Origin: Deroplatys truncata
Taxonomy: Eukaryota; Arthropoda; Insecta; Mantodea; Mantidae
Length of the DNA stretch: 64,000 nucleotides
Direction of reading: 5' to 3'
Assembly: GCA_030765065.1 (NCBI GenBank)
Contig: CM060986.1
Span: 76,439,573-76,503,572 of the forward strand
Shown: one piece after another, positions 2,876 through 51,255 of the stretch
How positions within the stretch are numbered: the first letter of the stretch is position 1
Layout: the number at the start of each line of letters is the position of its first letter
The notes under the pieces: model-generated
What the model was told of the DNA's origin: nothing
The model's input: the letters and a program-made list of their open reading frames with translations, nothing else
Database searches by the model: none
Translations under genes and position numbers: made by a program

Positions 2876-2891
2876 CTACCTAAATTAGATT

Positions 2892-3155: not shown

Positions 3156-3664
3156 TTGCTGTTCACCTAATTCTTCAAATCATCTGTGATGTGTGACTGA
3201 AGTCCGGGTCGAGTTTCGTTATGCGCATTTGTTCGTCCATTTACATTTCACACATTTTCTCACATTTCTTTTTCACTTTACTTTAACGGTAAATTTATGA
3301 GGGTTTCAACTTCCGAGCATTCAAAAATCGAATACCTCTCACCTCAGAGTCGATAGGACTTTGTAGCAAACAGTTCATTTGAACAATCACAGAAAGCCAC
3401 TAAACTTGTTTCGACTGTTACTCACACAACACTGAGAAGGGGTGTCGAGGAAACTATTCGACTTAGGATAGAAGCCCGACAGCGATCTGCATAGCGGGAA
3501 TGCACAAACGGTCCTTACTTCCTGGATCACCCTTGTGACTGCAATGCATGATAATATGGCAACATTAGAAACAAGAGAAATAAATTACTAATAGTAAATA
3601 GTCATAAAATCACGCATTTAAACCAATTAAATTTGAAAAGTTTTCGTTTTTAATTTTGTTAAGA
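3156..3664. promoter_or_regulatory. Upstream region of the Tctex gene
   Basis: About 500 bases between SINE-A copy 3 and the ATG. No recognisable repeat is present, and it should contain the promoter and 5' UTR. No convincing TATA box plus initiator pair stands out. Confidence 0.35.
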
Positions 3665-3944
3665 ATGGCAGATGAAAGTTCTCCTACACCTGAGACAGAA
3701 GCTCCTCCAGAAGAAGAGGCTCAAGCTGCCGAAGAAACAGAAGCTGCTGCAGAAGCAGAAGAAGCTACTGACGCATCTCCACCAGAAGAAGCCCCTCCAT
3801 CTGAGACACAGGAATCCGTTCCCGAAGATGCACCAGATCAACAGGAAACCGCTGTAGAAGGCGAGAGCTCGGAGGCTCCTAAACAGCAGGCATCAAAGGA
3901 TAAAGAAGGAGATCCTAAGAAGAAATCCAAGTCTATAATATTCG
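3665..3944 (+). CDS. Tctex gene exon 1: start and acidic tail
   Basis: ATG at 3665 opens MADESSPTPETEAPPEEE and the frame stays open to a GTAAGT donor at 3945, leaving one G of a split codon. The residues are almost all Glu, Ala, Pro, Ser and Thr, then become Lys-rich (KEGDPKKKSKS) just before the splice. The encoded 93 residues look intrinsically disordered. An in-frame ATG exists slightly upstream at 3656, but its context is poor and it adds only MLR; the MADE start is preferred because it sits at the natural beginning of the acidic run. Confidence 0.85.
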
Positions 3945-5386
3945 GTAAGTGCTTAAATTAAAAGAAAATAAGGATATAGAACCGTAGGTACAAAGTGTAT
4001 TCATAGACGAAGTTAACGATGCTTACCGTTTTAAATTAATATTATATATTCAAATTTTTATCCTGGTATCAATGAGCGCAATGCCAAAATTTCGTTTTGT
4101 CATGTTATATTCATAACAGAAAAACAATTCTCCTTTATTATTAATTCATTCAACTATTTCAAATGACGAGGACTTGATATATTTTTTTTTTTTTACAAAA
4201 TAAACATCTTAACAGTGATTGATGACCAGGAATTTACGGATTTTGTTTGTAGCTACTCTGAATACTTCGGAAAACATTCTTAAACGCCTTAATATTAAAC
4301 TTTAACATCGTTACTTTCTCTAACTCTTACTATGACAGAAGTAGTATGGTATTCGACTAAAGTGATATCTAAATGTTATTAAAATACACGTTTTGAGGTC
4401 CAGTGAATAAAAAATTCATTTTTAGAGAAAATGCGCGCATGTGAGAACAACATATACCAAAGAAAGAAGGGGGAGAAAAGAAACAGCGCATAAATACCAA
4501 AATTAAATACCCAAATTGATATCTTAAGTTCAGCATGTTCTAAGACTGTGTCAGGAAAACTGCTATTTTAGTGGAAATATTTTCGATTTTCGTAAAAACA
4601 GCTATAACGGTTTAAATTAATATACCATTGTGTTTGGCATATTTGAATGACCAGTGATAATAAAGTGTATATTTTGAATTTTCTGCGAAAAACCTAAAAA
4701 ATTGTTTTCAGTTTACACGATTTTCTTTAAAATAATTTGTATACCTAGTAAACTATAAGAGATAGGCGAAAATTTACTGCCCAAAAATTGAAGACCTCTT
4801 GGGAGTTTGGACAAGTAACTTTCTCTGTCGCGTTAACCTTTCTGGAAATATTCCTTATTACATATTCAGTTTTCTCAGGTTATATGGCATCTATAAAGCA
4901 TCTTGAACAAATACTGACTTACGATATGAGAATAATTGTATTCCTCGCATTTATATACCGCCTTTAGAATCTTAGGTCATACCTGGCTTTTTGCCTTTGG
5001 AAGAATTGCTCATCGGCAGTGATGTTCACTCGTTTATTGTTGTGGTACATTGTTTTTTACTTTGAGTTGTCTTTAAACTCAACATACAGTCATAATTTCT
5101 TTCATACTTCTACCCTCTAGGGAGCATAGAATAATTCTGACTAAAGAAAACTCTCCACCTCCAACCGGAAATCGAACCCGGGACCTCTGGATTGGGAGGC
5201 TAGCATGCTAACCACCAAATCACAGAGACAGTGTATTTCCCATAATTTTTTAGTTCCATTTATACCCTGCCTTTAACTGCAGTGGTGTTATCGCGGACTT
5301 TCATTTGGAAGACATTGTTGCCTAAAGGCAATGGTGTTAACTCGTATTCGCTTGTATTTTTGGTAAACTTTGGGTTCTATTCATTA

Positions 5387-5426
<40 letters not shown>

Positions 5427-8400
5427 CCAAAAACACTCATACATTCACACTGTCATTCATACTTCCAGAATCTGAGGAGGATAGGATCAGAGAAGTTGTC
5501 CTCCATGGTGTAGTGGTTACCATGCTAGCCTCGAGATCGCGGGTTCAAACCCGGTGGAGGGCGATGGATTGTTTCGGGCGTAAAAATCCTTAGGATGGCT
5601 TCCTTGTAAGGGAAGTAAAACCGGTGGCCCCGTGTCGTAGGTACGTGAAAGAACCTCAAGCCTGATAAAGTGGCCTCTGAGCAAAATTACCGGTCTTTCA
5701 AGCCCAATATAGAATGGAACGCTAAGGACTACAGCAGTTAAAGAGCGTCCATAAGTAAAACTCAATTTAATTTTTGGTCAGAGGAAAATTCCAACCCCAA
5801 CCAGGAATGGAACTCGAGACCCCTTACATAGCAGGCAGGCGCTCTACCGACTGAGTTTTCCATATTGTACATGTAACTAAATACTAGTTGCTTAATTTTA
5901 CATTGTTTCTAGACAAACATTTCTCCCAAGTAACGGAGCGTAAATAGAAGATTCACCTTTTAACTGAATACTATACATAAGGTATTTTGTGAAACCGCAA
6001 TGACTAGAATGAGTGCATCTCATCAGATATTTTCTAAACTTTGTCTGATTGAATTCCAGATGTATGGAGTAATATAAATATGGTAGGAAAATTGTGTAAC
6101 AAAGTTTGTTCTTAGCTATGTCCTATTTTCTGTCGAAAACTCGGATAAAAATAAACACAAACTGTATCATTTGAGTGCAACTACGTAGGAAAAACAAATG
6201 CGAGAAAAGCGCCACATTTCCACATTTAGCTAATATACATTATCGTGTGTAAATGGATATTTAAAAAGTTACATGGATTTAAAAATCCTTCACACGAAAA
6301 TATGACAGATTATTGAAGTACAAAGTTCAAAGATTTTTAAAAGTATTAAAATCCAAAATTGAAATTTTTGAAGATTTTTGTAAAATTTCGCCATTTCATT
6401 CCCTTAAGGCTTCATACTACAAGCACCCAAGAGAAAGTATCTGGCTTATCTTGAATAATGCGACTGTCTCGTCTGAATCGTAGCAGGTATTGGGTTGAAT
6501 GACTCCCGCGGTAGCCTAGCCCACGTCCCTTCGGAAGTAATAACATTTGCAGTTCAGTCTAACATTGTTTGGTATGGCGTATAGTAGTAATGGCATTATA
6601 TAAACCTTTCTGACGACTATATTGTAGCTATCATGGCGTATACTACTAAACAGCGTGTGTCTACTGTGACTATTTCACACTTACTAAACCGTACTACTTT
6701 TGACCAAAAAAAAAAATGGTACGAAATGAAGTGTTTCAATCAATCATTGCAGCTTATCCCCCAAAGTTTATCACTTCCCTAGCATATGTCTTTTATCACA
6801 TCCTTAGTATTTGTTCGTTTTTATCCTCTCTAGCATTTGTTTCTGTGTTTGCCATACACTACTGTGATCGTCGTTTGTTTCTCTCATATAAAATTAATTG
6901 AAAACAGCTATAGTATTTTAGTACATCAGTTAATATTTAATTGTATTTATTTCCTCTAATCTTTAAATACATTTTTCTAATCGTGAAATAGTCAATTAAA
7001 TTCCACGCGAAATATCGATATAATCAGAATCTCCGGTGAGATTAATATTGATAAATCAACTGTGGTCAGTAAAATGTGGTTTTACAGGATTATACACTGT
7101 TCCTAACAAATCCACGATTATAGGTGGTTAGAAGAAATTAAGACTCTTTTCGAGTTAGATAAAAATAAACAAACAGACACAACCAAAAACACTAACCGAG
7201 CAAAAACTATATGAAGCAAGGGCTGTCATGGAAAACGTCCAAGAAAATCGCTGAGTGTTTTTAAGGACAGGAAAATTGGTGGTTTACTCACTTTCGAAGC
7301 CTCAGTCCATGTGATAATTAGCTGTGGAGATTGCTTGAAGATAAGGTTTAAGCAATAAATCCTCTACTCTCGATGAACTAGAAGACAGTATCTGGCGTGG
7401 TTTTCCAATATGTCGGTTTAGAAATTCATGAGTGTTTACTAACGTGTTCAAAAAGCTAATGCATACGCAGATGGAATATAATTTGGAACACCCTGTTTTT
7501 AGGGAGCATGTTCATGTCAGTTGCTGCGCTCTAAGGGCATCGCTGGATATACCGAGATCGTACATGAAACCAAATTCATGGGATCAGCAGCAACAGAAAG
7601 AGGAGAACCGATTAGCGAACACGTACAGTTATGGAAAAAATTATTGAGTGCACTCTGAGGGCATAATATTTCTAAGTCCCACTTCATATTGCAGCGCGGT
7701 TTACACAAGTCGATATTTTCAGCATGCAGCTGGACTTTATTAACAGTCTCTGTGTCATGCGTTATCGTCTGTCGTACACACAAATATGCTGTGTCTTGAA
7801 TCACGTCTCGCACTTGTGTTTGTTCCTGATGTAAAACAGGGGCGGTGCGGCAAACTAATGCTATACTTCCTGTCCTTCGTTAGCCAGTGCATCAACAGAA
7901 CGCAAAAGTATTTCTGTCTGATGCCATGCTCATTGGTATTTATACAAATAGGAGGAGCAATCCATTCGACCGAAACGACCAAGACCCAAATCATAAGCCA
8001 CCAAGTCCCTGAATACGATAAATGGCAGCTGTTATAGCGCACATATGGAGTGACAACAGACCTTCTGAAACCCGATTAAATGTATAGAGTTTTTTATTTA
8101 TGGACGCTCTTTAACTACTGTGGTTCTTAGCGTCCCATTCTATATTGTGCGTGAAAGACCGGAGATTTTGCTCAGAGCCCCTTTATCAGGCTTGAGAATC
8201 TTTAACCTGCCATAAACCTACGACACGGGACCACCAGCTTTACTTCTCTTCCGAAGGAAGCCATGCTAAACATTTTTACTCCCCAAAAAATCCATCGCCC
8301 TCTGCCGGGTTTGAATCCTCGATCTTGGAAACTGGACGTAATATGTTGGCCTTAAAATTTTATACTGTTTCAATGGAATTGCGAGAAACAGCTGTATTTT

Positions 8401-11400
8401 GACAGGACTTTAAATTGTTCAATACCGTGGCTAGGTACTGAACAATTCGAAACATCAATAGTGGATATCTCGGAAATGGCTGATGCCACAAAAAGCTTAT
8501 TGGAAATGAATTGTATGTTTTAAAGAGATCTACATTTCCTGTGAGATACGTTTACGTCTATCGCTTAAGGTTTACAAGTTATACGAGATTATACAAAATT
8601 TCTTCTTAATGAAGAGGACTTCAAAGTCTATTCCAAGAACATTCAAGATATACATTTTATTTGTCAATAAATAACTCTAATGATGTGACGTATGCAGAGA
8701 TTACAGGACATACGTCTCTCTGGTCACCGGGATTTGAGATGGCAGTTGGTTTGGAGTAGGGGGAACTAGGCACTTTAGGAGGGGATGAGTTTGTTTAGCG
8801 TCACTGACGCTTGAGGATGGCGTGGCTTGATAAAGCGAGTCAGGAGGTAACCTTCGAGCTGTAAGGGTGTGCAACTGCTTTCTCCGTGCCAAGGCATGAT
8901 GGCCTCGCCGACAGATATTGGGCTGAGAGTGTAAGCACTGTTATCTATCTTTATACAATAAATTCCTTAGCCATCCATTTTCGGAAAGTTTTAATTATGT
9001 TAGTGTAGAGTCCTTTCCTTCCTTTAAGCTATGTAACGTTTCGAATTAGTAATATTTTCTGTACTTTCTTTAGCTGCGTCCCTCGTCGTAGCCTCGCCGT
9101 GTAAGAAGCTTGATTAATTTCCCGGTACATTCTCTTGTAAGCGAGTAGCTCCCCATCATTTTTGAGTAAATATTAAGAAGAGGCTACGACAATATATGGT
9201 ATTTTAATCAAAATCGTTAGAGCCAGTTTTTAGAAAATAAAAAATTTCGAAACATATTTAATGTAAAGAGTATTTGGGGTAGAAGATTTTCTTTAAAATC
9301 TTCGTATCACACTTTTTTGGAAGATATTGAACTTAAATACCAAGTTTATGGATCCAACTTTTCGTTTTTGAGATATGCGCGCGTGCGCACACAAGCACAC
9401 AGACACACGCTACCTTTTTGTAAAAGTGCATTTTTTGTATTCAGGTGCATTAAAACACGCATTTTTGTTGAAATCTCGGTATCGAAGTTTTGGTGGAATG
9501 GACCTTCTCTACCTACTAGATACGTGGTAGGGAAAGTAAAAAGATAACCGAGGTACATGAAGTACACAAATCACTTTAAAATGTAACTAACATCTAATTG
9601 CAGACATAAATAATAATTCATATTAAAGGTAATAATATTACTCTTACTTTAAGGTGAGCTGCATCGGGTGGTTGGTTAAAATTTGTTTCTCTCAAACATA
9701 AGCCTAATATTTCTCCGCTCAGTTTATCTTTCATGTGGAGTATGTGACTACTTTCAACAAGCTATGTATCCTTCTTTAGTGTAGAAGCTCTAAAATGTAA
9801 GGTGTGCCATTGAATTTTCTTAAAATCCACGTGAAGTTCTACTGATAAGGGCATATTTGTGTTGAACCTGCATGCTGGTGCGCGAGTTCCATTTTAATAA
9901 CTTCTCCTACGTTAGTGCTAGAGGCGCCAGTTGCTAACATAATGTGTTGTATCGCATTGTTAACATTATCTAAGGGAGAAACACTGGGGCGGTCCGCCGC
10001 AAGTGTTCGAACGGATACGTACCAGGTCTGTTCAAAAAATTCTGAACCATTCGTAATTTCGCGCCAATGGAGTGTTGGAGCGAAATGCGGTTGGCATCCC
10101 TGTATACGCCTGTGTTTAATATCTAATTGCCAGAAGTTTCATTATTCTATGTCTGTTAGTTATTGTTCAGTGCTGTATTGAGTAGAACGTTGTATCGCAC
10201 AGTTTGCGAATTTCGAGATGGCAGAGTTAGAGGAGCAACGCGTCTGCATTAAATTTTGCGTGAAATCAAGAAAACCTTTACAGAGACACCAAATGATGCA
10301 GGAAACCTACGGTGATGGATGCTTAGCTGTACTCGGTGTTACGAATGGTTCATGCGGTTTAAAAATGGCCGGATGGAAGTTAAAGATGACCCTCGTTCAG
10401 GACGCCCTTCGACGTCTACCGACGACGCTCATGTCAGGAACGTCAACAAAATTGTGCGTGCCAATCAAAGACTGACTATCGAGACGTGTTGCGACGCCTG
10501 AAATGTGGCGAGACAATTCATGGCTCTCGATAACGCACCCGCACATTCATCCCTGTTGGTTGCGAGACTATTGCACAAAAAATGATATCATTGTGCTGCC
10601 TCATCCTCCGTACTCTCCAGACCTGGACCCTGCGGACTGTTTTTTATTTCCAAAGTTGAAAACCCCGTTGAAAGGACGAAAATTTGCAACGATAGACGAG
10701 ATAAAATAAAATTCGCAGACGACGCTTCGCGCGATCCAGAAAGAGATGCACCAAGACTGCTTCCGGAAGTGGAAATGGCGCTGGGAGTGGTGTATCAATT
10801 GTGGAGGAGAGTATTTCGAAGGAGACCATGCACAATAAGTAAAAGGTAAGCGTAGGAAAATGTTGTGGACAAAGTTGCGGAAGTTTTTGAACAGATCTCG
10901 TATAGTTGTGCCGCGGGGCCGGTCTGCTTTTCCCGTCATTCAAGAAAATCCCAATCATTAAATTTCAATATGTTTTGATAATTATTTACAACATGTACCT
11001 ACACGAGTACAGGATAAACAAAACCTGTCTTGTATTAGTATTTCTGATTCGAAGTTGGTCTTCCTACTATGTACACAAACAGGTAACGTTGCCCAAACCT
11101 CGGATAGGTAAAACAGTATCTAGTTAAAACCGTTACTATTCTATCTTTCAATGTCTGTGATTATAAACGAGGTAACCCTATATTTTCTGTAACCAATGTA
11201 ATTAGTTAATTACTAACGTGGCATTTCAATACTTAAACTGCAGAGGAGAAAGAAGCGGAAGGAGGAGCGCCAGAAGCGGCAGAAGGGGCACTAGAAGGGG
11301 CAATATCAGCGGCAGAAAGGTTATCAGCAGCACAAGAAGGGGCACCAGAAGCGGCAGAAGAGGCACCAGAAGCGGCAGAAGGGGCACCAGCAGCGGCAGA

Positions 11401-14809: not shown

Positions 14810-17261
14810 ACACATACACACACACAAAGCACATAGCCTATTACAAAGTCTACTAAACGGTACGTTTAACAAGGGAAACAAAATAATAAACAATAAACAA
14901 ATTATTCATACGATTCACAGATATTGTTCAAAATGTCCACCATTTGCACAGCTGCAAGCTTCACACCTTCGTAACCAATTACGTGTACTTTAGCAAATAC
15001 AGGTTCTTTGTCGTCTTCCGTGGTGTAGTGGTTACCATGCTAGCCTCTAGTTCCTGAGGTAGCGGGTTCAAACTCAGCGGAGGGTGGCGGATTTTTTTCG
15101 GGCTTAAAAATCCTTAGCATGGCTTCCTTCGTAAGGGAAGTAAGACCGATGGTCCCGTGTCGTAGAACCTCAAGCCTGATAAAGAGGCCTCTGAGCAAAA
15201 TTACAGGTCTTTCATGCCCAATATTGAATGGGACGCTAAAGACCATAGCAGTTAAAGAGCGTCCACAAATAAAACTCAATTTAATTTTTTGACACTGTAA
15301 TTGTTGCGCATTTCCTCTACAGACAGATGAATACGTTGTGTCAAAGATTCGACATCAGTAATCGATGTTTTGTAGACCCTGCTGTTCATATCCCCCAAAA
15401 GAAAACTCCAGGGGATTCACGTCTGGCGACACTTCGGATTCCTTTATCACTAAACCTGTGAATTTCAAAGCGTAGTACGATGTTACTCAAATAGTGACTC
15501 AACTTCTAGTGGTGCTGACGTAAATATGGTGTGCTTTTCAGTAGGCGACCGTGAAACGCTTATTGGACCATGAAGGCATTACTTCCATACTGCTAGTGTA
15601 GGCCAATAGCTACCAAGTTGTACTTGTCATTTAAGGTGTGCTGATTTTTTTACGTCCAGGTGCTGGTTCTTATACTGACCTACCTTGACCTAGAACGTTT
15701 CCTTTGTCTCCAACCACATTACGTCTGCAAAACGGCGTTCGGAAATGATTAATTATTTGAAAACCCTGTGTGATGTCACCTAGTTACTATCGAAATAGAT
15801 TACTCTACCCATCTTACAAGTAACAAACTATTCTCTTCAAACATTCTGGTGGAATAAACTATCTAATTCGGAATTTCTTTTTCGAAAACGGTTGATCACA
15901 GAACACAATGGTATCATCCCTGCTTGTTTGTAATACTTCTATGAAATACATATTAGAAGGAATATAATATGTTGCCTTACACCCCGTGTATCTGTTAATC
16001 TACGTAAATAATATGATTAAGGTTTACTATGCAGCTGTAAACATTTTATTTCATTGAATCGCCCTGTGCTGTTCGTATAAAAACTGATTCTTCTCTCAGA
16101 TTTAGGTTGGTCACAGCAACTTATTGCTAGAAATACTTTCAAACAATGTAACATGGACTTGATCAAGATGCGAAGACGAAACACAACCGTCTTTACATTC
16201 TAAGCCAGTTTTAGTTATAGGTGAGTTCATGTTAGAAAGAAAAGAATCGCATACTTCCAAAGGTGGTTCACAGATGCTATATCACAATTAAACCAGAAAA
16301 TAAAGATCTGATGTGTCACACTCATACGACTTTCTCTACCCATTACAATTTTCACTTTCCTTTATGTATATTTTAATATTTAAACCAAAACTGATTAATT
16401 CCTCTATGTTACTTGGGATAAATATTTTAAGTAGAAATAATCTCAAATCGAGCAAAGTAGACTTGGTTGCATGCACAGTATGAAAAAGTCTGCCTCTGTA
16501 CTCGAGTGCTTAGCGTTCTGGCTTCTCAACCTGAATTCGATGCCCAGTTGGATTGGCAGAATTTTTCTGGATCACTACCTACCCTCCACAGAGACAGAGA
16601 GTATACATGTGGAAATGATGTAAGCTTGTTTCATGGTTAAAATTAATAAACCTACGTATTAAAAATACCTACAGTCAAACGATTTATAAGACCGTCAGTT
16701 GTTTTTCAATTTCAGTTTCGGTCAAAGCCACCATAGAAGTTAAAGGGGATCATACAAATGAAGACAAAACACAGTGTCAGTTTTTTCATTAATGAACTCA
16801 TATGGGAAAAAAGAATCACGTAAAATGTTTTAAAATGCTGCATGAAAGTTCACATAAAGTTATGGCAACGAATATTTTCAAAGCAGCTAATGCCACAGAC
16901 AGTCATTTCACACGAATCGTGTATTTAAGTAATCTCTAACCTTTTGTGCAATAACTTTTCATCTATCTCTTAAAGATTAGTACTTTTACAAAATTATAAT
17001 AAATGCCTTCCAACAGGCTACTCACAGATACTCCATATATAAACGTTGTTAAGATGCATCTATCTTAAACGTATAGTATTTTATAAAAGCCTTAGTGAAA
17101 TGTTTGAAAAAACAATAACGAAAAGTCTTCAATATGAAGGGTAGTTTGGTTGGGGCTATTTCCTGCAAAATCTTCGCGTCGCATCCATGGAAGATGCCAA
17201 TCTCAATTACCAAGCTTGGTATTAATCTGACTTTTCATTTTTGAGTTACACTATCTAGTGA

Positions 17262-17294
<33 letters not shown>

Positions 17295-18009
17295 TACAGA
17301 CACACACACACACACACTATATATTTCCCATTACACTCTACAGTTAAAACTTCAGGGGTTTAAATCAGAGGATCGAGGGAGCACTAAAAGAAAAAGGTTA
17401 CAAAACAAATCTATAAATTTTAGACGAAATAACATTCATCAAGAAATTGCTACCATTTCTCAGAAATTGAGTTTTATTTATGGACGCTCTTTAACTACTA
17501 TGGTTCTTAGCGTCCCATTCTATATTGGGCGTGAAAGACCGGAAATTTTGCTCAGAGGCCTCTTATCTGGCTTGAGGTTCTTTTACGTGCCGTAAATCTA
17601 CGACACGGGACCACCGGCTTTACTTCCCTTCCGAAGGAAGACGTGCTAAGGATTTTTACGCCCGAAAAAATCCATCGCCCTCCGCCGCCTCGGGAACCAG
17701 AAGCTAGCACGGTACCACTAGTCCACGGAGGACGACCATTTCTCAGAGGAAACTATAGAGTGTAATTTCCTAAGTAGGTACCAGAAGTGCTTGAACAACG
17801 AAGGGAGGCAATTCCAATATCTCCTTGCTTGATATACATGAGTAGCTTACTTATCTTTTAAGTGTTTATGTCATATATGTTAGAAATAACTTACGCGACA
17901 AACCGTACTACATATATTTACTGCGGATTTCCTGTCACCCGCAGCGCCGACACAGCAAAGTTTCGCCGGCTGCGAAACCGGTCCCACTAAAATTATTCAC
18001 CCGGTATAT

Positions 18010-18073
<64 letters not shown>

Positions 18074-19443
18074 TGCGCAGCAAGAAGGAAACGCATGAAT
18101 TCAATGAATTTAATATCACAGGTTAGGCACATCACAAGTAACAAATGATAAACATTTCAAATCTATACATGACCTTTGAGCTCTAATATTAAGTATTTGG
18201 TGTGGCCTCCATGCGCTGCAATTAGAGCTGCTACACGCCGTGGCATTGAATCAAAAAGGCTCTGCATAAGGGATTTCCCTCCACGCAGTTTGTATTCCAG
18301 CCCACAAAACCGTGACACTGGTTACTGGAGAACCGTGATGCACCAGGTGCCGACTAACCATATCCCAGACATATTCGATGAGCTACATGTCAGGCGAACG
18401 TGCAGGCCAGGGAAGCAATGGTACCCGTCGCTCTTCGAAGAAGGCTTGTACATTCCTCAAAATATGTGGACGGGCCTTGCCTGTTGAAATGCGGCCTATG
18501 GAGATGCCTGAAGCAGGGGGAGTACCTCAGGCTTATAACCACCGTTAGGCACTGGTTGCTGTTCAAAGTGCCCTCAATTCGTAGGAGGTGAGATCGATTG
18601 TTGTAACCAATGGCGACCCAAACCATCACACCTGGTGTTTGTCCGCTATGCTGCTCAACAATGCAGCCCTCCAGGTTGCACGCACCACGGTACCGCCGGA
18701 CACGTATGTGGCCATCACTGTAGGACACGTTGAAGCGGGATTCGTCCGAAAAGACTACATTTTGCCCCTTCAGCACCCCAGTGAGGTGTTCACGTGCCCA
18801 TTGCAGTCAGAGGAGCTTGTGGCTTCTGGACAATGGAAGCCGACGTAATGGCATGCATGTAACCAGTCCAACCTGCAGCAGACGGCGATGCACCGTAGAT
18901 GCAGACAAGTTCACACTTGTTGCAGTGCTCCAGCATCGAGCCAACACTGTGGATGAAGCTGTATGGTCCGTTATGGCCATGCGGACAAGATGACGGTCAT
19001 CCCGTGCTGTGGTCCTGTTTCGTGGTTCAGTACCCGCTCTTCGCGCGTACGACCTTCATCTATCCACTACTTCCACACACGCATCCCTGTGGTAGCAGCT
19101 CGCCCTGTACGAGCCGAAATGTCACGGTATGACAAACCCGCTTCCCGGAGACCGATCATTCTGCCCCGTTCGAACTCGCTCACATGCCGATATGGCTTCC
19201 TTTGACGTCAACGAGGTATAATGGCAATCACTTTATTGTTTCCACCTTCTTTGACAGCTCTGCGACTACACTGGGCGCAACGCTGATCTTGTCGGACCGA
19301 CACGAGAGGGCTCTGCTGGGCCTACGTATACCCATCTCTCTGCAAACCTAATCACTTATTGCTTGCAAACTGTTCTACACTTCCACCAAGTTTGGAGTTA
19401 TTCGGGAAATTCTTTCTTGGTGTTGCAATTTTCACAAACGGCA

Positions 19444-25500: not shown

Positions 25501-28500
25501 CTCACAATGGAACAAAAACAGTGTCATGAGGATGTTTCAGTCGGGTGTTTGGCGATGTTTCGCTGCAATAAAGCCGAGTTTTGCGTCGATTCATAACCAT
25601 GGATGAAACATGGGTCCATCACTTCACACCTGAGACGAAGGAACAGTCAAAATAGTGGATTAAAAGCCGCGAATCAGCTCCAAAGAAGGCAAAGACAGTT
25701 CCATCTGCAGGCAAGGTCAGGGCGTCAGTTTCCTTTTTTGGGATACGCGTGGGGTAATTTTCATTTATTATTTTCAAAAAGGAGAAACAATGGTGAGTAT
25801 TATGTAAACTTATTGCAGCGTTTGAATGATGAAATCAAGCAAAAACGGCCGCATTTAGCGAAAAAGAAAATTTTATTTCATCAAGACAATGCACCAGCTC
25901 ACATCCATTATCGCCATGGCCAAAATCAATGAGTTAAAGTTTGAATTACTTCCTTATACACCTTATTCGCCAGACTTAACCCCTGCTGATTATTTTCTGT
26001 TTTCAAATTTGAAGAAATGGCTTGGTGGTGAAAGATTTGCCAACAATGAAGAGGTGGAGTCTGCAGTTGATGGCTATTTTGCAGAACTCGACGGTTCTCA
26101 CTGTAAGCAGGGTATTGAAGCGATTGAACATCACTGGGAAAAGTGTATCGAGCTGAAAGGAGACTATGTAGAGAAATAAAGATGTTTTTCCGAAAATTAT
26201 TTGTTTTCTTTGTTAGGTCGGGTACTTCTGGGACAGCCCTCGTACATTCTATATAACTTAATCTTTCTTTACACACATTTTTCACAATTAATTAAATTCT
26301 CATTCTGGTGTAGAATAAATTTTAGTGGCTCCTCATACTAGAAGTTCGCCACCAGTCCATAAAACAATCGTATAGTTTGTAAGATGCATTTTTTCTGTGT
26401 CTAAGATTCCATGGCAGAGGAAATTGCGTTACTGGTATCGTTGGTTTCAGGAGATGGGAATTGAAAGTAAAGGCCCGGAAGTCAGATCTTTATCACAGAG
26501 TAGCTGAAAGGAAACAAATTGTGAATCTGCAAGTTAATGTGATGTTGGTCAAAACAGACAACTCATTACTTATGCCCTCCAAGGAGCATTCGTATATGTG
26601 CCGCATATGTTCCCTAAGAGATTATCACAGACAAATTTAACTGCAGAAAAACTCACGTTTCCTATATGAACTTGCGGGGAAGTCTGCAAAGGTTATACAA
26701 AACTTATGCTATGCAAAGACGAATGTTCGAAAAACATTGATAACTGGTAGAAAAGTGGTGCAAGCAATATACTAGCGGAAAATATTTAGTAGTTCATATT
26801 TTATTACAAAACAAACCTTACTTTTAAGAAAACTCTGGTATATACCGTGATGAATGGCTCAGGCGGCATCGTCTGTGGTCCGCATTCGGGAGGTCCCGGG
26901 TTCGATTCCGGATGGTCGCCCACTCTAACCATGGGGCTTTTCGTGGTTTTCCTTTGGTCGCCTAGGCGAATGATAGGTTGGTGTATTCTACCACGATATC
27001 TCCTTTCCCCCATTTCCTTTTATTTCATCTCTCCCTCTCATGTTTCAGGAGTGTCTTCGGGTCCTTCAGTGCTGGCGATGTCGGACAGATGGTTAGTTGC
27101 TTGCGCATTGTAAAGATTTCTCCCCGTGAACACCAGGGTGCGTTGTCCTGCTCACTCGGGTCGTTTCATCGCCCTCTCTCGGGATTCTTCGCCTCTACTG
27201 GTGAGCGAGTGTTTCAACCTGGAAGTATTAGAGACTTCTAGCGACTCTGTGGTCCTGTATGCCTACGGAGCTGCGAGCTCCTTCACTTCATCCCTGTTAC
27301 CCGGGGGCGTAGTCACAATAGACTAAGCTGGTCGCAGTGGCGAGGTGTCCCCCTCCGAAAATACATCCTACATCCTATCCCTCATATAATTTGATTTTGT
27401 ACTCTTTCCGGTTTTCTGTTTAGCTCATCGTACTTTCGCGTCTTGTAAACATTGTGACTAGGGAACGCTGCTTTACTATAGAAGAGAAAGATTTATGTTA
27501 GGAATAGCCAGCTGGAGGAGCCATCAGGAATAGGAGCGCAATACCGCACTTTATGCACAGTGGGACCTTTGTGCTTCCAAGTAACTCCTGGGAAGGAAGG
27601 GATGAAGGGGAGACCCGAAGGAGGTCCAAATTCGGACGACGATGTACGCTAGCAAGAACGGGGTTCCTAACGATTCCATCATGACATTGATCCTAAAGCC
27701 GGCTAGTCCTGCCTAAGCCACCAACAACCTGGAGGTCCCGGAAATAAGCGAGTCTTTCCCAAGAAGGAAGGGGGCCACAGAGTTCCACCAAGTGCTAGGG
27801 AGAAATCTTTCCAAAGTGCAAATTCCACCGTCTTGCCACAACACACCAACCGCCGTGACCTGGTCCTATAACCCTGAAACAGGTGTGGTGAAATAGAGGG
27901 ACGGAAATGATGGGGACATGAAACAATGAACAGGAAGTTCGTGGTAGAAGGGGAATATTCGCCTACTGACCCAGCAGGTGCTGTTCATAGGCTCGCAAGC
28001 ATACACGCACATACACATACAGACACACACACACACACACACACGCAGACCTTTTTCTAATTTGTTTTGGTTCAGGGGACCTCAAAACTATACTTGCGGT
28101 GAAATATTGGTAGCGAATTTTTGGGTAGTTACGATGCTCCCATTACTTGCTATAGGTAGAAGAGGAAGTAAAAATACATTTAAAGTATAAGTAGTATGCC
28201 TGTAATGATAAAGTAAATATCAGATTAAAGAGAAAATTCCAACTAATAAGGCTGCAATATTTTTTCTAAGTTTGCCATTTAGTCTCCCTTTAAAAGACAC
28301 TGACATCCTACGTCTGGTTATCATTGGCAATCATTGTCGCAACAATGGAAAAAGAAATCAAACTTTTCTCTGAACTTGCGTTTGCATTGTAGGCGTCTTT
28401 CTTCTTTTATAGAATTTCCTTCCTTATACTTGAACATGGCCACTAACAACAAAATCCCTATACGGCGTTTCTCATTCAAGTTTCATCGCACTCAGCATTC

Positions 28501-29870
28501 GAATCTTGTATCCTGTACATAAGACGACACGTTTTGTGTTTTAAGACTGCACCGCGACAAGCGTACAGAGAATCGATTTTAACTCGTTCCTTGTACAGGC
28601 TATCACTCCTCTGGCTGAAGAGTAAACGTCATAGTATAAATTTTACCCTCGGTGAACTACAAGCTCTTTTGCTGTAATGCATAAACAAGGCTAGATTTTA
28701 AGTAAAATGAACGAAGAAATTAGCAAAGGACATGTCGCAGGAAAGCGGGTAAGCCTAGGAGCTATTTTCTTGCATGAAATTAATTAAAATAAATTATATA
28801 TCACAGAAGCTGATATTGAAGCAAACAAGAATTCTAGATGTAATTATGATTTTTGTTTCTTTGTTTTTTTTTGTAGATCCGCCTTGTACCATGTGTTGTA
28901 AATACAATCATTACAGTGATTTGTTTGCATTGTTTGAGGAATATCGACGGTGAAGAAACAATTTAAGAATTTTTTTACTTTCTCTACTACGTATAGTAAG
29001 TAGGGGAAGTATTGTATTCCGCCCAAAAATTCGATACCGAGATTTCACATATGTTTTGAGACCCCCTGAATCCAAAAAAAGCATTTTGGAAACATGTCCG
29101 TTTGTGTGTCTGTGAACAGCATAACTCAGAAACGTACAGTCGGATAAACACCAAACTTGGTTATAGGTTCAGTATCTTCCAGAGATGCGACACGAAGGTT
29201 TTCAAGAAAATTCCCCACCCCAGACTACCCTTTACACGGAACATTTTGGGAAATTTTAATTTTCTCAAAAACGGCTCTAACGATTTTGATTAAAATATTA
29301 CATGTTTAAGATATTTTCATGACAAATGAAATGTATATCTCGAATTTTCTGGGAATGTCTCCAAAAGTATTCTTCATTGTGAACGACGTTTGCATAACTG
29401 GTAAACCATAAGACAAGGGTGGCGAAAACGCTTTCCTTCCGCGAGTCACCAAATATGCAACACGCACTGCAGCACTCAGTAGCATGTGAAAATCAAACGG
29501 ACGGTTGTAGAGAGGGAACGTGCGCCTGCGAGTCAAAATAACTCGCGAGTCACGTTTCGCCACCTCTGCCATAAGAGATAGACAAAATGTTACTACACAA
29601 AAAATGTAGATCGCGTTAAAATACACAATTTATGTCATATACATTTTTGTTGTTGAGTGAACAATTTTCTAGATATTGCTTGTTATTCCCTTAAATTTTC
29701 CAATACTTATACTTTTTCTCAAATTTCTTATTCATTTTTACTTTCTCTACTACGTATAGTAAGTAGGGGAAGTATTGTATTCCACCCAAAAATTCGATAC
29801 CGAGATTTCACCGGAAACATATGTTTTGAGACCCCCTGAATCCAAAAAAAAAAGCATTTTTGGAAACATG

Positions 29871-29908
<38 letters not shown>

Positions 29909-32900
29909 TGTGAACAACATAACTCAGAAACGAACAGTCGGATAAACACCAAACTTGCTATTTAGGTTCAGTATCTTCCAGAGATGCGACACGAAGGTTT
30001 TCAAGAAAATCTCCCCACCCCAGAGTACCCTTTACATGGAACATTTTTCGAAAATTTTAATTTTCTCAAAAATGGCTCTAACGATTTTGATTAAAATATC
30101 ATATGTTTAAGATATTTTTATGAAAAATGAAATGCATATCTCGAATTTTCTGGGAATGTCTCCAAAAGTATTCTTCATTGTGAACGACTTTTGCATAACT
30201 GGTAAACCATAAGAGATGAGAGACAAAATTTTACTATACAAAAAATGTAGATCGCGTTAAAATACAGAATTTATGGCATATACATTTTTGTTGTTGAATG
30301 AATCATTTTCGAGATATTGCTTGTTATTCCCTTAAGTTTTTTAATACTTATTTTCTCAAATGGGAATTCGTTATTCATTTTTTTTGTCTTGGATATGCAA
30401 AGAGTATTATTCTGTGGCAAAGAGAATGGTACTGCACCTAGCAACCAGCTATTAAGAGATATGTCTGTGCTTAAAGGCTACTGTATTTCTATATTGCCCT
30501 TGCAAATACAAAACAAGGGGAATATAGTACGCCTTAAGGGATAGTCAAATATTTTTAGAACTGGTCGCTGTGTGTAAAATGTAATTCTCTTTGCATGTCA
30601 AAAGATCGTTTCTGCAAATGTTTATCTCGATTAATATGAATAAGAGTTTGTAAAAATAATTTGTACAAGAGTAAAGAAAGTCATGTGAGTGTAACATATC
30701 AGAATTTTTTTTTATTTCATGTAAGTTTTAATTTCATGTATGACACGCGGCTGCCTACCCATTATCAATTCTGAGGTATCCTCGTATACATGTACTTCAT
30801 GTGAAAGCCGGTTTTTACATCCATCTTATCTTAATCACGACAAATGTTTGGCTAAGAGTGGGTTCAAATTACGCAATATGGGTTAGGTCTACAGGCAAGA
30901 TACGGGCATAACATCCAGTTGCATAAAATACAAGTTCATTTTTGTCAATTAATGAGCGCAGGCAAAGCAAAATAGCAAGAAAAAATCTGATGTGATACAT
31001 TCACATGACTTTCTCTAGCCTCTATCTTTATTAGTGGGTGTACAAACTATTCTACCTTTCCAACCCTGTCCAGCACACGGCTTGTGTGGAAGAACAATTA
31101 ATTCTATTCTTACTAAAGCTTATTTTCCTCTGTACTACATTTCAATCCAGATAAACCTTTGCAGAAATGGCTACATCACACATTTCGTTAGGATACAAAG
31201 AGCACAGCGATAGTCAAATATTTAAGAACAGGACGCTATATGCTGGCCTTAAAATCCCATACGTTTCCATGACATCACGAGAAACAACTGAATGTCGACA
31301 GGACTTTAAAAGAATGACAATGAACAATTTGAATCTTTAATAACGGATATCTTAGAAATGGCTTATGCCACAAAAAACTCATTTGAAATTAATTGTGTTT
31401 TAAACAGTTGTGCATTTTTTGTGTAGTACGTTTTCGTCTATTGCTTAACGTTTACCAATTATACAAGATTCTATAAAATTCCTTTCGAATGAAGGGGACT
31501 CTACAGACTACTCTCAGAAAACACAAGATATACATTTTATTTGCCATATATACATCTTTAATACATGGGATTTTAATCGAAATTGTCAGAGCCATTATTT
31601 AGAAAATCAGACATTTCGAAAAATGTTACTTGTGAAGGGTAGTTTGGGGTAGGGGGGATTTTCTTGATAATCTTCGTATTGAATCGTGGGAAAATACTGA
31701 ACTTAAGTACCAGGTTGGTATTTATCCAACATTTCATTTTTTAGTTATACTGTTCATAGACACACGCGCGCGCACATCTACAGATAGAGAGACAAGAGAG
31801 ACAGACACACACACGGATTGTTTTCTAAAAGTGCTGTTTTTGGATTCAGAGGGCCTCAAAACATATTTTCGGCGAAATTTCGGTATCGAATTTTTGGGTG
31901 AAATACAAGTAGTAGTCTGTAGTAGAGAAAGTAAAAATCGGATTACTTCACAATACATTCTCTACCCATTGTCGTTTATTAGTTTCTCTATGTACAGTAG
32001 CTTGTATTCCAAACAAAAATTTCCAAATCGAGATTTCCTGGAAATACACGTTTTGAGTTTCCCTGAATAAAACACGCATTTTTAAAACAAGATGCATGTA
32101 TGTGTGTCTGTGTGTAGGTGTCTGTGAACAGCGTAACTCGAAAACAAAAAGTCAGATGGAAGCAAAACTTGGTATTTACCCATCTTCCAAGGTTGCGACC
32201 CGAAGATTTTCAAGAAAATCTCACATTCCAAACTATCCCTTCCTTGCATGAAAGATTTTTCGAAATTTTCTATTTTCTCAAAAATTGCTCTAACGATTTT
32301 TATTAAAATACTATGTTTAAGATACTTCATGACAAATGAAATGTATATCTTAAGTTTTCTGAGAATAGCCTGTGAAGTTCTGTTCATTCTAAATTAATTT
32401 TCAATAGTTTGTAAACCGTGAGAGGTAGGCAAAAGTTTACCCATACAAAAATGTATATCTTGTTAAATCACACAGTTTATGTCAAACAAACGTTTTTGTG
32501 GCATTAACCATATCCAAGATATACTTTATTATTGGTCTGAATTGTCAAGAACTTTATTTTGCAGTTAAGTACTTTAACTGCAAAATCATTATTCGCTGTC
32601 TTTTCATGGTAATGCAAAGAGAACAGAATTTCAAAGCCATCACATAGCGACCTGTAATTAAAAGATTTGACTATCCCTTTTCCCTTGCACCTACAAGGAA
32701 ATATATAACAAAACCATTTCTGCGAATGTTTATCTCGATTAGTATGAAGTAGATGAAAGAATAAGCTTTTGTAAGAATAGTTTGTTGAAGAATGAGTAGA
32801 GAAAGTCATGTGAAATAACACAAAGGGTTTTTATGTAGCTCCTACAAACTATTCTTAAGAAACCATATATTTGCTGTCTACTTCATATTAATCGAGATAA

Positions 32901-35900
32901 ACATTTGCAGAAATAGCTTCTTTATTCATTTCTTTGTAGGCACAAGGAAGCAGAAGAAACCAATCGATACTCAGATATTTATAAGCTGGTGGTTATGTGC
33001 TGACCTTGAAATTCCATGCTCTTTCCGCGACATCGCGAGAAACAACTGAATAGTGACAGCATTCAAAAAAATGAAAAATTATTGACAAATTCAAACCAAC
33101 AATAACAGATATCTTAGAAATGGGTGATGAAAAAATTATTGGAAATAAATTATGTGTTTTAAACAGATCTGAATTGTGTAGTACGTTTCTGTCTATAATT
33201 TTTATCGTTTACCAGTTATATAGAATTATACAAAATTCCTTCACAGGCTGTTCCCGAAAATTCAAGATATACATTTTATTGATCATGTAAAAATTTTCAA
33301 TATCTGTATTTTAATCAAAATCGTTACAGTCATTTGTTTACAAAATGAAAAATATAGAACATTTTTTCAGTGTATAGGTTAGTTTGACTTGCTGGAGGAT
33401 GGGGGTAATTTTCTTGAAAATCTTCATATCGCATTTCTGAAATATGCCGAACCCTTGGTATGCACCAGCTTAGTACCAAATTTGCTATTTATTGGATTTT
33501 TCGTTGTGCTGTTCTCAGTCACACACACACATGCGCGCGTCCGCGGACTTTTTTTTCTAAAAATTCCTTGTTTTATTCATTGGATTTGAGGCAGTATTTT
33601 TAACATTTAAATAATTTCAGTCTAATTATATAATATAAAATATAATAACAGCCCACCTTAAAGCAATATGCGTATGTGATAATGTATAAAAAGTGTATAT
33701 TACAGTATTGTATATGTTTGTATTATTATATACATGTAGTAACGTTATGTGAATGTATTACGTAATTTAATAATGTAGGAGCTGTGAAAAATAGGTTAAA
33801 AGTTGCTAACAATGAGGTAACAATGAGGTAACCTTGAGGCAAAATGAGTAAGAAAGTTTAAATGCTACTAGTCATTATTGGAGCAACAATAATGAAAATT
33901 TTTGAGACAGTTTAATAAAATAGCCAATTAACAACCAGAAAAAGCTTTAGTTAAATGAAGGTATTCTATTGGAGTAGGATTAGCCAATCAGAAACTTGAA
34001 ATACAGAAATTTACAAATTTAGGCTGTAGAAATGAAGTCAATTGCTTGTGGACAGTGCTCATAACTGGGCGTGTTGGTTGTAGACAGTGTTTCTAACTGG
34101 ATGCGAGATGTGTCCTCGAGAAGTTTAATACGTATTTGTGTGAGACGAAAATAGTTTTACGTATTAACAAAGTGCAAGTAATTAATTTAAAAAAAATCTC
34201 ACAGCTCCCTATATCAGTGAAGTTTATTTAAATTGTGTCAAGAATTAATAAATGTAGTGAAGTAAAAACAATTATATCTGCATAAGCCTACATTCTTAGC
34301 CGCACTACGCCCTGCCAAGACATTCATGTCTCTAAAAAATAAAAATACTGACGCAGCCGAGGCAAACATAAATATACAATATTTAAAGAAACAGTCAAAT
34401 TACATATTTAATATTTTTTGGGGGGCAAAGGCCACCGGAAAGTACATTTGGGGCGAAGGCTATCGGAAACTGTTTACCATACGTGCTGTTGCAACTAATT
34501 CAAGTTCGGCTCCCCAACAGTTGAACTACAATACAACTCCTACTTCAAATTGGCTTTCCATACACGAAGCAACAACCTACTTCAAACTGACGCCCAAAGC
34601 GTTGTGCAAATAATTTAAAAATAACAATACAACAAACCATCTACTTCAGATGTCAAAACATGTATTTCCAGTGAAATCTCGATATTGAAATTTTGGGTGA
34701 AATGCAATACTTCCTCGAGGTACGAGGTAAAAAGAAAAAGCATTAACATTTTCAAATAGTATTTCAGTGACACAAACAGAGAAGCTCAGATACCATTATA
34801 GATGTAATAGAACTTATTCTTTAAAAATCTGATGTGTTGCATTGACACGGTTTTCTCTACACCCTTCTACACACTAATCTTATAAAAGCTCATTACTCTA
34901 TCCACCTACTTCTTGTTAACTCATGGATCTTTCAATTTACATTTACAATAGTTTTGGGATACATTAGCTAAAGCAATAATCAGATTTTTAAATAGTGTGT
35001 CACTGTGTGGTGTCTTTGTAATTCCATGTATTTGTTATGACCACAAGAAAAAAAATCTGATGTGGTGCACTCACATGACTTTCTCTACTCTTGTAACAAC
35101 TATTTTTACAAAAACTTATTCTCCATTAACTTAATTTCATCGAGATTAACATTTGCGGAAAGTATCTTATTGCTAATTTTCTTGTAGGTACAAGGGGAAT
35201 ATGGTAGACTTTAAGAGCTGGTTGCTATGTGGAGCATTTCATTCTCTTTGCACGTCGGGACATTAAAAATTTGCTTTATGTAAAATTTTGAGAGAGCTGC
35301 GCTGGAAACTGCGGAAAAAACGAAACGCAACTTGTTGGTACCGATACCATCTTTATAAAATGGCCTCATGGGAGCATAGATCTTCGGTCTTTTTTTATTG
35401 CATTTAAATTTACATTTGCATTTAATCAAAAAATTCAATTTACTACTGAGATTAAACGTGACCGTAAACCCCCATTTCTAGATGTATTGGTCAGCAAAGA
35501 AACACAAAGTAAACTCGGTCACTCTGTTTACAGAAAACCGGTTAGCACCTATCAATACTTGCATAAGGCTCTAACCATCATTCTCAACAAAACGAGGTGT
35601 TATTAAAACCTTAGTTGAACGTGCCAAAAGTATCAGAAAGCCACAACACCTACAAAGTGAACTAAGTCTCTTCAGCAAGCTTTCGCCCATAATGATTCTC
35701 TAAACAGGAATTTACACATGCAATTCATCCCAATGAATCTCACAAGGAAAGCATAAATCGACCTAACCCGAGAGCTAAGGTTTTCTGCCACATTAAAGGC
35801 GTCACTGACAGAATCGGCAAGATATTAGATAAACAGCAAGTTAAAACAATACTTCTGCCCACAAAAAATTAAAACAGATCCACAAAGCCGAAGATCCATT

Positions 35901-40992: not shown

Positions 40993-41645
40993 TTAGAGGG
41001 GTATTCAATATTCCCAACTAATGCACATATTTTTTCAAACCTGATTCTACTTTCCTGCCTTAGGCTACACACATACAGTTTGAAAGTAAATCGCAGTGTG
41101 AATGGGAAAGTAATTCATTTTGATTAAGCTGTATGATGTGTGAAACACGAATTTAAGCTTCTATGTATAGACGTGTCAAATTTTTCAGTATTTGAAGAGA
41201 AGTATTTTCGATCTGAAGAGAAGTTTAAAAACATGTGACATATATCCACTCATATTAACTTACCCGAGAAACATTAAAATAATTTGTGTTCAAATTCACA
41301 GGAACTTATTACTCACTGCAGCCATTTTTGTAATTAATCACATTTTGTTTATAAGAACAATAAAGTAAAGAAAGCTAACACGGAAATGTAATATTATGGC
41401 ACCAGATGTAACTATAATATCCTCGTCAAAAGTCTTTAATACGTACCTGCAGTATATGAGGATGCTTATGTTTTTGAACAGGTCTGTGCTTTTCACAGGT
41501 GAACTTGTATATAATGAGAATCTAATTTAATGTTTCTAATGTAATTTAAAGTGATTTATATACAGACAATGCGAAAACATTTGTGTAGAATGTATTATTG
41601 GTAATAAAACACTTTTTATTTAATATAGCACTGTTTATTTTTTTT

Positions 41646-42515
41646 CTTTCTCTACCATGTACCTAGTAGAGAAGACATTGCATTCCACCCTAAAATTTGT
41701 TATCAAAATTTCACCGAAAATACATGTTTTGAAGCACCTGAATCCAATTAAAGCAATTTTAGAAAAATGTTCATGTATGCATGCCTGTTAACAACATAAC
41801 TCAAAAATTAAATGTTGGATGAATACCAAACTTGGTATTTAGGTTTGATATCTTCCAAAGATGTGACAAAAAATTTTCAAGAAAATCCCTTCTCCCCAAA
41901 CTACCCTTTACATGGAGTACTTTTCGAACGTTTTTATTTTTAAAAACCAATCTCTAATAATTTCGATTAAAATACCATATATGTAAGACATTTACATGAC
42001 AACTAAAATGTATATCTTGAATGTTCTGAGAATAGCCGATGAAGTCTTCTTCATTCAAAGGAATTTTGTTTAAATTTCTATAACTGGTAAACGTTAAGCG
42101 ATGGACGAAAACTTAGGTACTACACAAAAAATGTAGATCTCTTTAAAACACACAATTTATTTCAAATAAGTTTTTTTGTGGCATAAGCCATTTCTGAGAT
42201 ATCCGTTATTAAAGCTTCGAATTGTTCGTTTATTGGTCATTCTTTTAAAGTACTGCCAACATTCAGTCGTTTCTGCGATTAATGGAAACAACGCGGAATT
42301 TTAAGGCCAGCTTATAGCGTCCAGTTCATAAACATTTGACTATTACTGTTCCCTTTGTATCTATAACAAAATGTGTAACGTAGTCTTTTTCTGCAAAGCT
42401 TTATTTGGATTAAAATGTAGTAGATAGAAAAATAAGCTTTAGAAGGAATAGTTTGTATACCCAGTAATAAAGTTAGTGGGTAGAGGAAGTCATGTGAATG
42501 TATCACATCAGAATT
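41646..42515 (+). repeat. H1 repeat, full-length copy downstream of the Tctex gene
   Basis: CTTTCTCTACCATGTACC start, CCACCCTAAAATTTGTTATC, CAAAGATGTGACAAAAAATT, and end GTAGAGGAAGTCATGTGAAT then GTATCACATCAGAATTT. About 870 bp; the TG tract is nearly lost. Confidence 0.88.
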
Positions 42516-42662
42516 TCTCTCTCTCTCCCCATCCCATTTTGAAAACCACAGGCCTAAAGATAATATGACCTATGATCTATTTGTGTACAGAGAAATAGCT
42601 CAACCAGACATTGATTTTGGGTGGGGGCAGATAGGACATAACCAATTTTTCTGCTTTTACGC

Positions 42663-49640: not shown

Positions 49641-50068
49641 GTTGTGAGCACATGATAATATATATAATGGGGCAATATGAAACTAGAAGCGTGGAAGCTA
49701 GAGCCAGTTGCTGCGCATTGTGGTCGGACATGTCGTTAAATGGACTGCCAAGTGTGTAAACATACTGACGAAGCGCAGGACGCGCTGTAAATCCTCTAGC
49801 TTAACCACTGTTCTGCCGGCGTACTATATGATTTTTTTGAAAATATTCTCTCATATGCAATTGCAACAATAATAAGGAATAATCTCAATTAAATATTCAG
49901 TTGATGTGTAATTTGTTAAGTTTTTTTTACCATAAAATGGCTCCAAAAGCTTTTTAAATAAGAACCCAACCTTTAATGGGAGCGTGGGAGCCCTCATTTG
50001 GAGCCCCGATTACACCAGCCTAATTACACCCCCGACATTGGCTATATCTCGTATATGTCGTTCAGTTA

Positions 50069-51255
50069 TTACTTTCTCTCCCACGCATCTAGCCGACAGA
50101 AAAGGTGCTATATATTGCATTCCACCCAAAAATTCGATGTAGAAATTTTAGTGGAAATACATGTTTTCAGGCCCTGAAAAAAAGCAGGAAAAAAGCAGAA
50201 TTTTTAGAAAAACGTTTGCACACGTGTGTGTATGTGTGTGTGTGTGTTAGCAGCGTAAATCAAAACCGAAAAGTTGGATAATTACGAAACTTAACGTATA
50301 AGTTCAGCATATCCTGAGGATGCGACACGGAGATTTTTTTTAAGAAGATCTCCTTACACCAAACTACCTTTTGCATGGAAGATTTTTTCGAAATATTAGT
50401 TTTTCTCAGAAATGGCTCTAATGTTTTTTTTTTTATTAAAATAGCATGTATTTAAGATATTTACATGACAAATGAAACGTATATCTTGAATTTCCTGGGA
50501 ATAGCCTTTGAAGTCCTCATTCGGAAGGAATTTTGTATAATTTTAGATAATGGTAAGCTTTAAAACATAGACAAAAACGAACTACTCAAGAAAGGTAGTT
50601 TCTCTTTAAAACACACAGCTTATTTCCAATAACCTTCTTATGGCATCAACCTTTCCGAGATATCCGTTAGAATTGGTTTGAAATTTTCAATACTTGGTCA
50701 TGCTCTTAAAATTAAATTGAGTTTTATTTATGGACACTCTTTAACTACTATGGTCCTTAGCGTCCTATTCTATATTGGGCATGAAACACCGGCAATTTTG
50801 CTCAGAGACCTCTTTATCAGCCTTGAGGTTCTTTTACGTGCCGTAAATCTAAAACACGGGACCACCGGCTTTACTTCCCTTCCGAAGGAAGCCGTGCATT
50901 TTTATGGCCGAAAAAATCCATCGACCTTGGGAACTAGAGGCTAGCACGGTACCACTAGTCCACGGAGGACGACGTCATGCTCTTGTTATTCAGTTGTTTC
51001 TTACATTGTAATGGAAAGAGTATGGTTATGCTATGATATAGCTCTCTCCTTTAAACACCTTAACTATTGATTCGATTTGCTCTATTTCCCTTGTACCTAC
51101 AAGAAACTGAATGAAACTGTTTCTGCAAAGGTTTATCTGGATTAATGTGCTGTAGATAGAAAAATAAGCGTTTGGAGCAGCAGTTTGTAAAAACTATATA
51201 AATATAAACGATAGCGGTAGAAAAAATTATGTGATTGTAGCACATAAAGAATTGT
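50069..51255 (+). repeat. H1 repeat, full span, interrupted by SINE-A copy 11
   Basis: Starts ACTTTCTCTCCCACGCATCT, with GTGTGTGTATGTGTGTGTGT at the microsatellite position, and ends GTAGAAAAAATTATGTGATT then GTAGCACATAAAGAATT. Left and right parts resume on either side of the SINE at the same H1 position. Confidence 0.87.
50708..50973 (-). repeat. SINE-A copy 11 in H1, target duplication
   Basis: Reverse copy from TTGAGTTTTATTTATGGACA to GTCCACGGAGGACGAC with the variant head GGACTAGTGGTACCGTGC and a deletion around box B. GTCATGCTCTT at 50697-50707 and 50974-50984 is an 11-base duplication. Confidence 0.94.

Follow-up and report, generated by a model that had tools for sequence, protein, structure and literature searches.

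Results

The H1 element in the window

In the genome of the mantis Deroplatys truncata, the whole stretch of 64,000 nucleotides analyzed here (the window) contains a non-coding element, H1, which extends on the plus strand from ACTTTC to CAGA (29740..30703), with its ends set by genome copies and empty sites, and is flanked by T-runs on either side. Five T's at 29735..29739 (+) form its left boundary, as read from the left ends of genome copies. They are followed by the left subTIR ACTTTCTCTAC (29740..29750, +) and, beside it, the inverted repeat GTAGGGGAAGT (29763..29773, +); a DNA fold pairs these two as a hairpin (z −3.18; 3 of 200 shuffles fold equally well). A (GT)n microsatellite, the TG tract, occupies 29874..29912 (+), and an internal T8 run lies at 30378..30385 (+; consensus 619–626), which the sequence and the junction data mark as a recurrent insertion site of family members. 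The right subTIR (30671..30681, +) reads GTAAAGAAAGT in the focal copy, one base off GTAGAGAAAGT, the version in most genome copies. It precedes a putative 3′ stem-loop, ATGTG..CATAT (30683..30699, +; CACAT in most copies), and the terminal CAGA directly after it (30700–30703, +). An earlier note, made from the sequence alone, had described a left end, a TG tract, an inverted motif 22 bases inside the terminus and a 3′ hairpin, and all four lie where it placed them in the focal copy. The inverted motif has the one-base difference given above, and the stem reads CATAT rather than CACAT. ATGTG..CACAT was present in most of the H1 right ends listed, and a typical right end folded no better than shuffles (z −0.30, single-strand).

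The focal element has no coding capacity, its stop-to-stop frames of at least 75 aa being 77 and 80 aa long, and the sole ORF of at least 150 aa listed in the window (23004–23588) lies outside H1. No match was obtained in Rfam at gathering scores, for the two H1 end motifs in viral contigs, or for H1 in plasmids and phages. Elsewhere in the window, the frames at 10182–10706, 18393–19055 and 25345–26176 look like transposases that we take to be of decayed mariner/Tc1 type; a Pfam scan of ten window frames gave one weak DDE_3 match, below the cut-off.

The end motifs are strongly over-represented: ACTTTCTCTAC occurs 17 times in the window with at most one mismatch (1.26 expected), and GTAGAGAAAGTCATGTGA eight times with at most three mismatches (0.02 expected). 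A profile built from seven window copies recovered 17 stretches at E < 1e-10, the seven source copies included by construction, and a profile from 40 genome copies had no match at E 1e-3 in five locally shuffled windows. Two points of the earlier note need correction, however. Only 28972–29739 (87–89%) and 29735–30703 are H1 proper. The other blast pieces matched the focal copy at 66–77% when longer than 62 bases (78–100% when 30–62 bases long), and they are therefore older relatives of H1. In addition, several of the copies listed in the note are fragments.

The first of the two H1 copies proper (28972..29739, +) consists of consensus 1–622 only, and the focal copy begins in its T-run. This outer copy carries a MITE-like insert at 29413..29569 (no strand assigned), which has inverted ends GGTGGCGAAA..TTTCGCCACC and 8-bp CCATAAGA direct repeats on both sides and is presumably of hAT type. 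Both ends were found in five window members, namely those starting at 29735, 30977 (to 31937, minus strand), 31970, 41640 and 50066. Among the older relatives, two ends are present at 30977..31937 (−) and 41640..42518 (+); the relative at 31970..32833 (+) has a degenerate left end, and that at 50066..51255 (+) contains a foreign repeat (about 50.7–51.0 kb) that we assume to be SINE-like. The relatives at 32821..33605 (−) and 16301..17331 (−; the 16.3-kb piece) are without a left end; that at 8303..9542 (−) has a foreign insert, and its right end was not found. Three pieces, one from a left end and two in succession from right ends, make up 34640..35281 (−); the older relative at 4301..4893 (+) is a left part, and left-end pieces lie at 19.5, 20.6 and 28.1 kb.

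Genome copies and termini of H1

The assembly that holds the window comprises 4.29 Gb in 818 contigs. When the focal copy was used as a nucleotide query, 44 matches were obtained from 40 scored candidates of 7659, and 40 copies, including the window copy, were aligned. The consensus that the earlier note had called for, from all genome copies, is in this form sufficient to fix the ends, but it represents the best matches to the focal copy and not a random sample. The 40 copies have a mean pairwise divergence of 6.7% and a mean distance of 3.6% (2.2–5.1%) to the 963-base consensus, in which we saw no satellite array. A left end was obtained from 34 of the 40 aligned copies and none from the other six; these left ends have the form T5|ACTTTCTCTAC with the inverted GTAGGGGAAGT close by; right ends have the form GTAGAGAAAGT-hairpin-CAGA, then T's, with the misread right ends of L002 and L026 left out. 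The subTIR pair ACTTTCTCTAC/GTAGAGAAAGT is at least 11 bp long and is placed near the 5′ terminus and 3′-subterminally, as in a HINE. The five bases before ACTTTC were TTTTT in 26/34 left ends, TTATT in 4/34 and other words in 4/34, and in a table of 28 copies position −6 was at background while T's prevailed at +1 to +6 after CAGA. Exact left-end words numbered 172,559 in the genome, and a reversed-pattern control gave 0.

A Helentron with the ends of H1

The earlier note had supposed that H1 is mobilized by an unseen Rep-helicase partner, and such a partner was found in the same assembly. The Pfam family PF14214 (Helitron Rep) gave 152 matches in the genome and none in 14 control genomes; among the matches listed, 18 lie in open frames of more than 2000 aa. 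Ends were examined in 12 loci, all from those 18 (copies A and B and ten more), with open frames of 2108–2543 aa. An H1-type right end was detected in 12/12 and the H1 left end in 11/12, that of B lying beyond the stretch fetched. In the 11 loci other than B, H1 consensus 6–842 (837 positions) was 89.9–94.2% identical to the first ~850 bases of the Helentron; the alignment in B falls on its inserted H1 and does not enter this range. The right-end identity covers only the last ~35 bases, and upstream of these the sequences differ. The simple form of the element is seen in C10_1444, with one left end, one right end and a frame of 2543 aa (about 10.6 kb by coordinates).

Copies A and B share 99.6% identity across 9550 bases and have one open frame of 2408 aa each, in which Pfam, scanned in two pieces, identified Herpes_teg_N, DUF6570, Helitron_like_N, PIF1 and UvrD_C_2. 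Rep is followed by a PIF1 helicase in one frame in A and B, the two of the 12 loci scanned in full. Exo_endo_phos_2 scored 27.5 bits in a 299-aa piece of A (cut-off 27.4) and 25.4 in a longer piece; in B it was absent, and Exo_endo_phos appeared at E 0.013. Against solved structures, the 299-aa piece of A matched only PIF1-type helicases. In L071 and L073, Herpes_teg_N and DUF6570 lie in the N-terminal part of the Helentron frame, and 63-base tandem repeats lie within the open frame at about 2787–3940; these repeats may be part of the reason for the differing frame lengths among copies. The related locus L052 reads YQRVEFQMRGSPHEH, that is, RGSPHEH with an S between the G and P of motif 2, a Helentron-type signature described in section 7 of Thomas et al. 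(2014, PMC4067079).

The genome also contains a stronger PF14214 group (L029–L048), and mobilization of H1 by these other Helitrons instead of the Helentron was considered. We take the group to be of canonical Helitron type. Such Rep fragments are indeed present, and in L038 the left half of an H1 is joined to one; in that locus, however, H1 stops at about 352 against a broken-off Rep frame, as in a random deletion junction, and L038 was rejected as an H1 carrying Rep. Among the other loci of the group, clear H1 pieces were found only in L045, within 1.5-kb flanks that do not cover the true ends, whereas in the 12 loci examined it is the Helentron whose ends H1 shares. We therefore judge mobilization by these Helitrons highly improbable.

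Empty sites and target sequence

Paralogous empty sites, which the earlier note had suggested for fixing the termini, place the insertions in T-runs. In the cleanest case, a 949-base H1 occupies a T8 run of Helentron B that is empty in its sister A, and the joined flanks match A at 99.3% over 1652 bases. The run counts eight T's in seven other loci and seven in three; in B it has become T6 + T7, giving five extra T's. The second clean site is that of composite C4_6942 inside an H1, where the joined flanks match the H1 consensus at 91% over 510 bases and there are five T's more than in the consensus. Apart from the element itself, five T's are all that either insertion visibly added. Looser empty sites, counted only where the match extended for 20 bases to each side of the join, were obtained for 6/28 loci, five aligning to H1 relatives and L014 to its own tandem; these alignments are loose except for L018, which has ACC between the right end and the T's. 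The data support insertion of H1 in T-rich DNA without target duplication other than T's; a T-only duplication is compatible with the T's on both sides.

Such a duplication could hide in these T's if H1 were a MITE of a cut-and-paste DNA transposon, which would also account for the short inverted motif at both ends. The motifs are asymmetric, however, lying 0 and 22 bases from the termini. Neither long symmetrical TIRs nor target-site duplications, which according to the earlier note would point to a MITE, were seen, with one exception: among the eight copies with an informative (non-TTTTT) left word, seven do not repeat the word at the right, and only L008 has TTTCT on both sides. Since the ends and 837 consensus positions common to H1 and a Rep/PIF1 element already contradict a MITE, the probability that we give to this origin is close to negligible.

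Nesting at the internal T8

Beyond the earlier reading, H1 and its partner insert into one another at the internal T8, and the resulting nests appear to be mobile as a whole. The H1 consensus has the internal T8 at 619–626 and another T8 at 526–533; the internal run was T6–T9 in 31 of the 34 H1 copies read. Ten of the 12 Helentrons are composites, in which the Helentron's own left end is immediately preceded by an H1 5′ part that breaks off in the T8 at 619–626 (the outer part of C3_1720 begins at position 33); in B, the left end of which lies beyond the fetched stretch, an outer part could not be seen. The junction word is nearly identical in eight composites. Near the junction (205–448 bases), the outer 5′ parts of six of these eight, on six contigs, are 98.2–100% alike, versus 89.7–92.7% to the window H1; the full outer 5′ parts of nine composites, 626–680 bp long, are only 86.0–99.1% alike, which leaves room for recombination or for separate outer copies. 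At the right side, 5/12 Helentrons stop at the first right end and 7/12 run on through an H1 3′ part to a second one. Alignments of 100 columns or fewer were left out when these loci were compared with H1. A product of the same kind lies in the window, where H1 1–622 (28972–29739) runs straight into the focal copy; in the flank searched, no H1 3′ part on the same strand was found after the focal copy.

Genome-wide, exact words identified 123,585 uninterrupted T8 sites (reversed-pattern control, 1) and 16,100 left junctions in T8, corresponding to 9.3% of the 172,559 left ends (control, 0); the right junctions predicted by nesting, counted with a looser pattern than the left ones, numbered 18,049 (control, 0). 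Special homing to the T8 was considered and rejected: 9.3% of exact left ends lie there, but the H1 T8 itself makes up perhaps 4–7% of all T-runs of 7–8 or more, if this one H1-rich window is typical, and H1's own wealth of T-runs may account for much of the recurrent targeting. Contig C1 carries close to its start (G000:C1:20307-122587) a tandem array that seems to contain an H1-family element, the H1 T8 word being repeated there 31 times on a single strand in steps of about 3,409 bases. Junction pairs 443–451 bases apart recur inverted a few kb off at G000:C1:13833732-13843086, 22028068-22033263 and 26123579-26132956, which suggests inverted duplications.

Units with two left ends could also arise by tandem rolling-circle read-through of a 3′-truncated circle instead of by nested insertion, and several observations agree with this. 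Of the 99 neighboring pairs formed by the first 100 left junctions listed, 21 lie on the same strand 443–669 bases apart; tandems of a right end followed by a left end occur in L014, L065, C4_1937, C5_9482 and C3_1720; and excerpts of the oyster study of Vojvoda Zeljko et al. (2020, PMC7492417) describe 3′-truncated inner copies in tandem for Helitrons. Junction pairing was examined on C1 among the first 100 places of each junction list, and on the stretch shared by the two lists 50 of 81 left junctions had no exact-word right junction nearby. The other 31 of these 81 had a same-strand right junction 300–2500 bases downstream, against 0.4 expected, and the right junctions that nesting predicts are present (18,049 by the looser pattern versus 16,100 left junctions). 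Furthermore, four of five junction pairs fetched, which were chosen for having both junctions, were complete nests, and C13_2382 has, besides three right ends, a third piece of H1 on its left side. In the four complete nests the inner copies are 93.3–95.5% alike, the outer 5′ parts 87–93% and the outer 3′ parts 85–96%, a spread that suggests separate insertions as well as copying of nests. On balance, read-through is a possible but rather unlikely source of these units, and we favor nested insertion.

Discussion

H1 is very probably a non-autonomous Helentron (HINE), a deletion derivative of a Helentron of the same genome that is its likely driver, the two nesting mutually at T8 runs and apparently being copied as whole units. 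The family is new here; its kind is already known. The common ends, the insertion in T-runs, the long Rep frames (with PIF1 in the two scanned) and a sequence-clean H1 insertion inside one Helentron were observed directly. They bring the reading of H1 as a HINE with a Helentron partner in the same genome, as the earlier note had proposed for its family, close to demonstration, the endonuclease being the weakest point. H1 would have arisen when the initial ~850 bases of the Helentron, corresponding to consensus 6–842, became joined to a short module carrying the right end. Judging from the products, a Helentron protein would nick at the left end, a single strand would be peeled off by rolling-circle replication, and copying would stop at the hairpin and CAGA of the right end, the strand being joined to a T-run. 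H1 and the Helentron would insert into each other because both carry T8 runs, and composites with shared junctions suggest that members enter one another in the same orientation. Copying of such a nested unit could start at the outer left end and run as far as either right end, the inner or the outer. Both the rolling-circle movement and the choice of ends are what we infer from sequences of the products. Against the partnership stands the 6–10% difference between the H1 consensus and the Helentron 5′ end, so that the Helentrons examined need not be the movers of the sampled H1 copies; in excerpts of Thomas et al. (2014, PMC4067079), other pairs are given identities of >95% or 84–99.9%.

H1 otherwise resembles the HINEs of Metaseiulus, Culex and Drosophila and DINE-1, as described in those excerpts (PMC4067079), in its 11-bp left subTIR after a few T's, its microsatellite, its 3′ subTIR before a putative stem-loop, its T-rich insertion without other target change and its autonomous Helentron with the same ends; with DINE-1 it also shares the IR beside the left subTIR. 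The distance of the 3′ subTIR to the terminus differs (22 bases in H1, 38–60 in mites), and nesting at one internal T8 is not among the HINE features that these excerpts describe. Cg_HINE of the Pacific oyster, according to the parts of PMC7492417 consulted, likewise has two modules, an 11–12 bp subTIR with an IR, a microsatellite after the left module, a 3′ palindrome and oligo-T sites. It differs in its satellite array, of which none was seen in the H1 consensus, and that study could relate no partner to its HINEs.

The nearest report of Helitron or Helentron nesting, tandem arrangement or self-insertion that we found, in a search that left most subscription papers outside, concerns Fusarium oxysporum (PMC5148889). 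In the portion of that paper on FoHeli Helitron2 elements with multiple 5′ termini, nested self-insertion is proposed to give two 5′ ends and one 3′ end, as in our composites. The duplicated 5′ part is typically <200 bp in FoHeli, compared with 626–680 bp in nine copies here, where it precedes long open frames, and both alternative right ends were observed here, unlike in the FoHeli account. That study detected no endonuclease among its fungal elements. Helentrons with a herpes-tegument-like deubiquitinase domain, as excerpts of PMC9741609 describe them, resemble A and B, in which Herpes_teg_N is N-terminal in the frame and recognized here by a match of sequence.

Whether the family grows by self-nesting is, in our estimate, an even question: the T-run in most full-length members would be a built-in target, and nests would become mobile units in which two left ends are combined with alternative right ends, composites being the commoner long-frame form (10/12). 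If so, Helentron composites would lengthen step by step, the non-coding partner forming their outer shell. The nested units correspond to the products predicted by the Fusarium self-insertion model, here before complete Helentrons. With a very large HINE family and long-frame partners in one assembly, the rules of rolling-circle termination can be worked out from products formed in nature, namely the left end used for starting, the right end used for stopping and the number of T's added.
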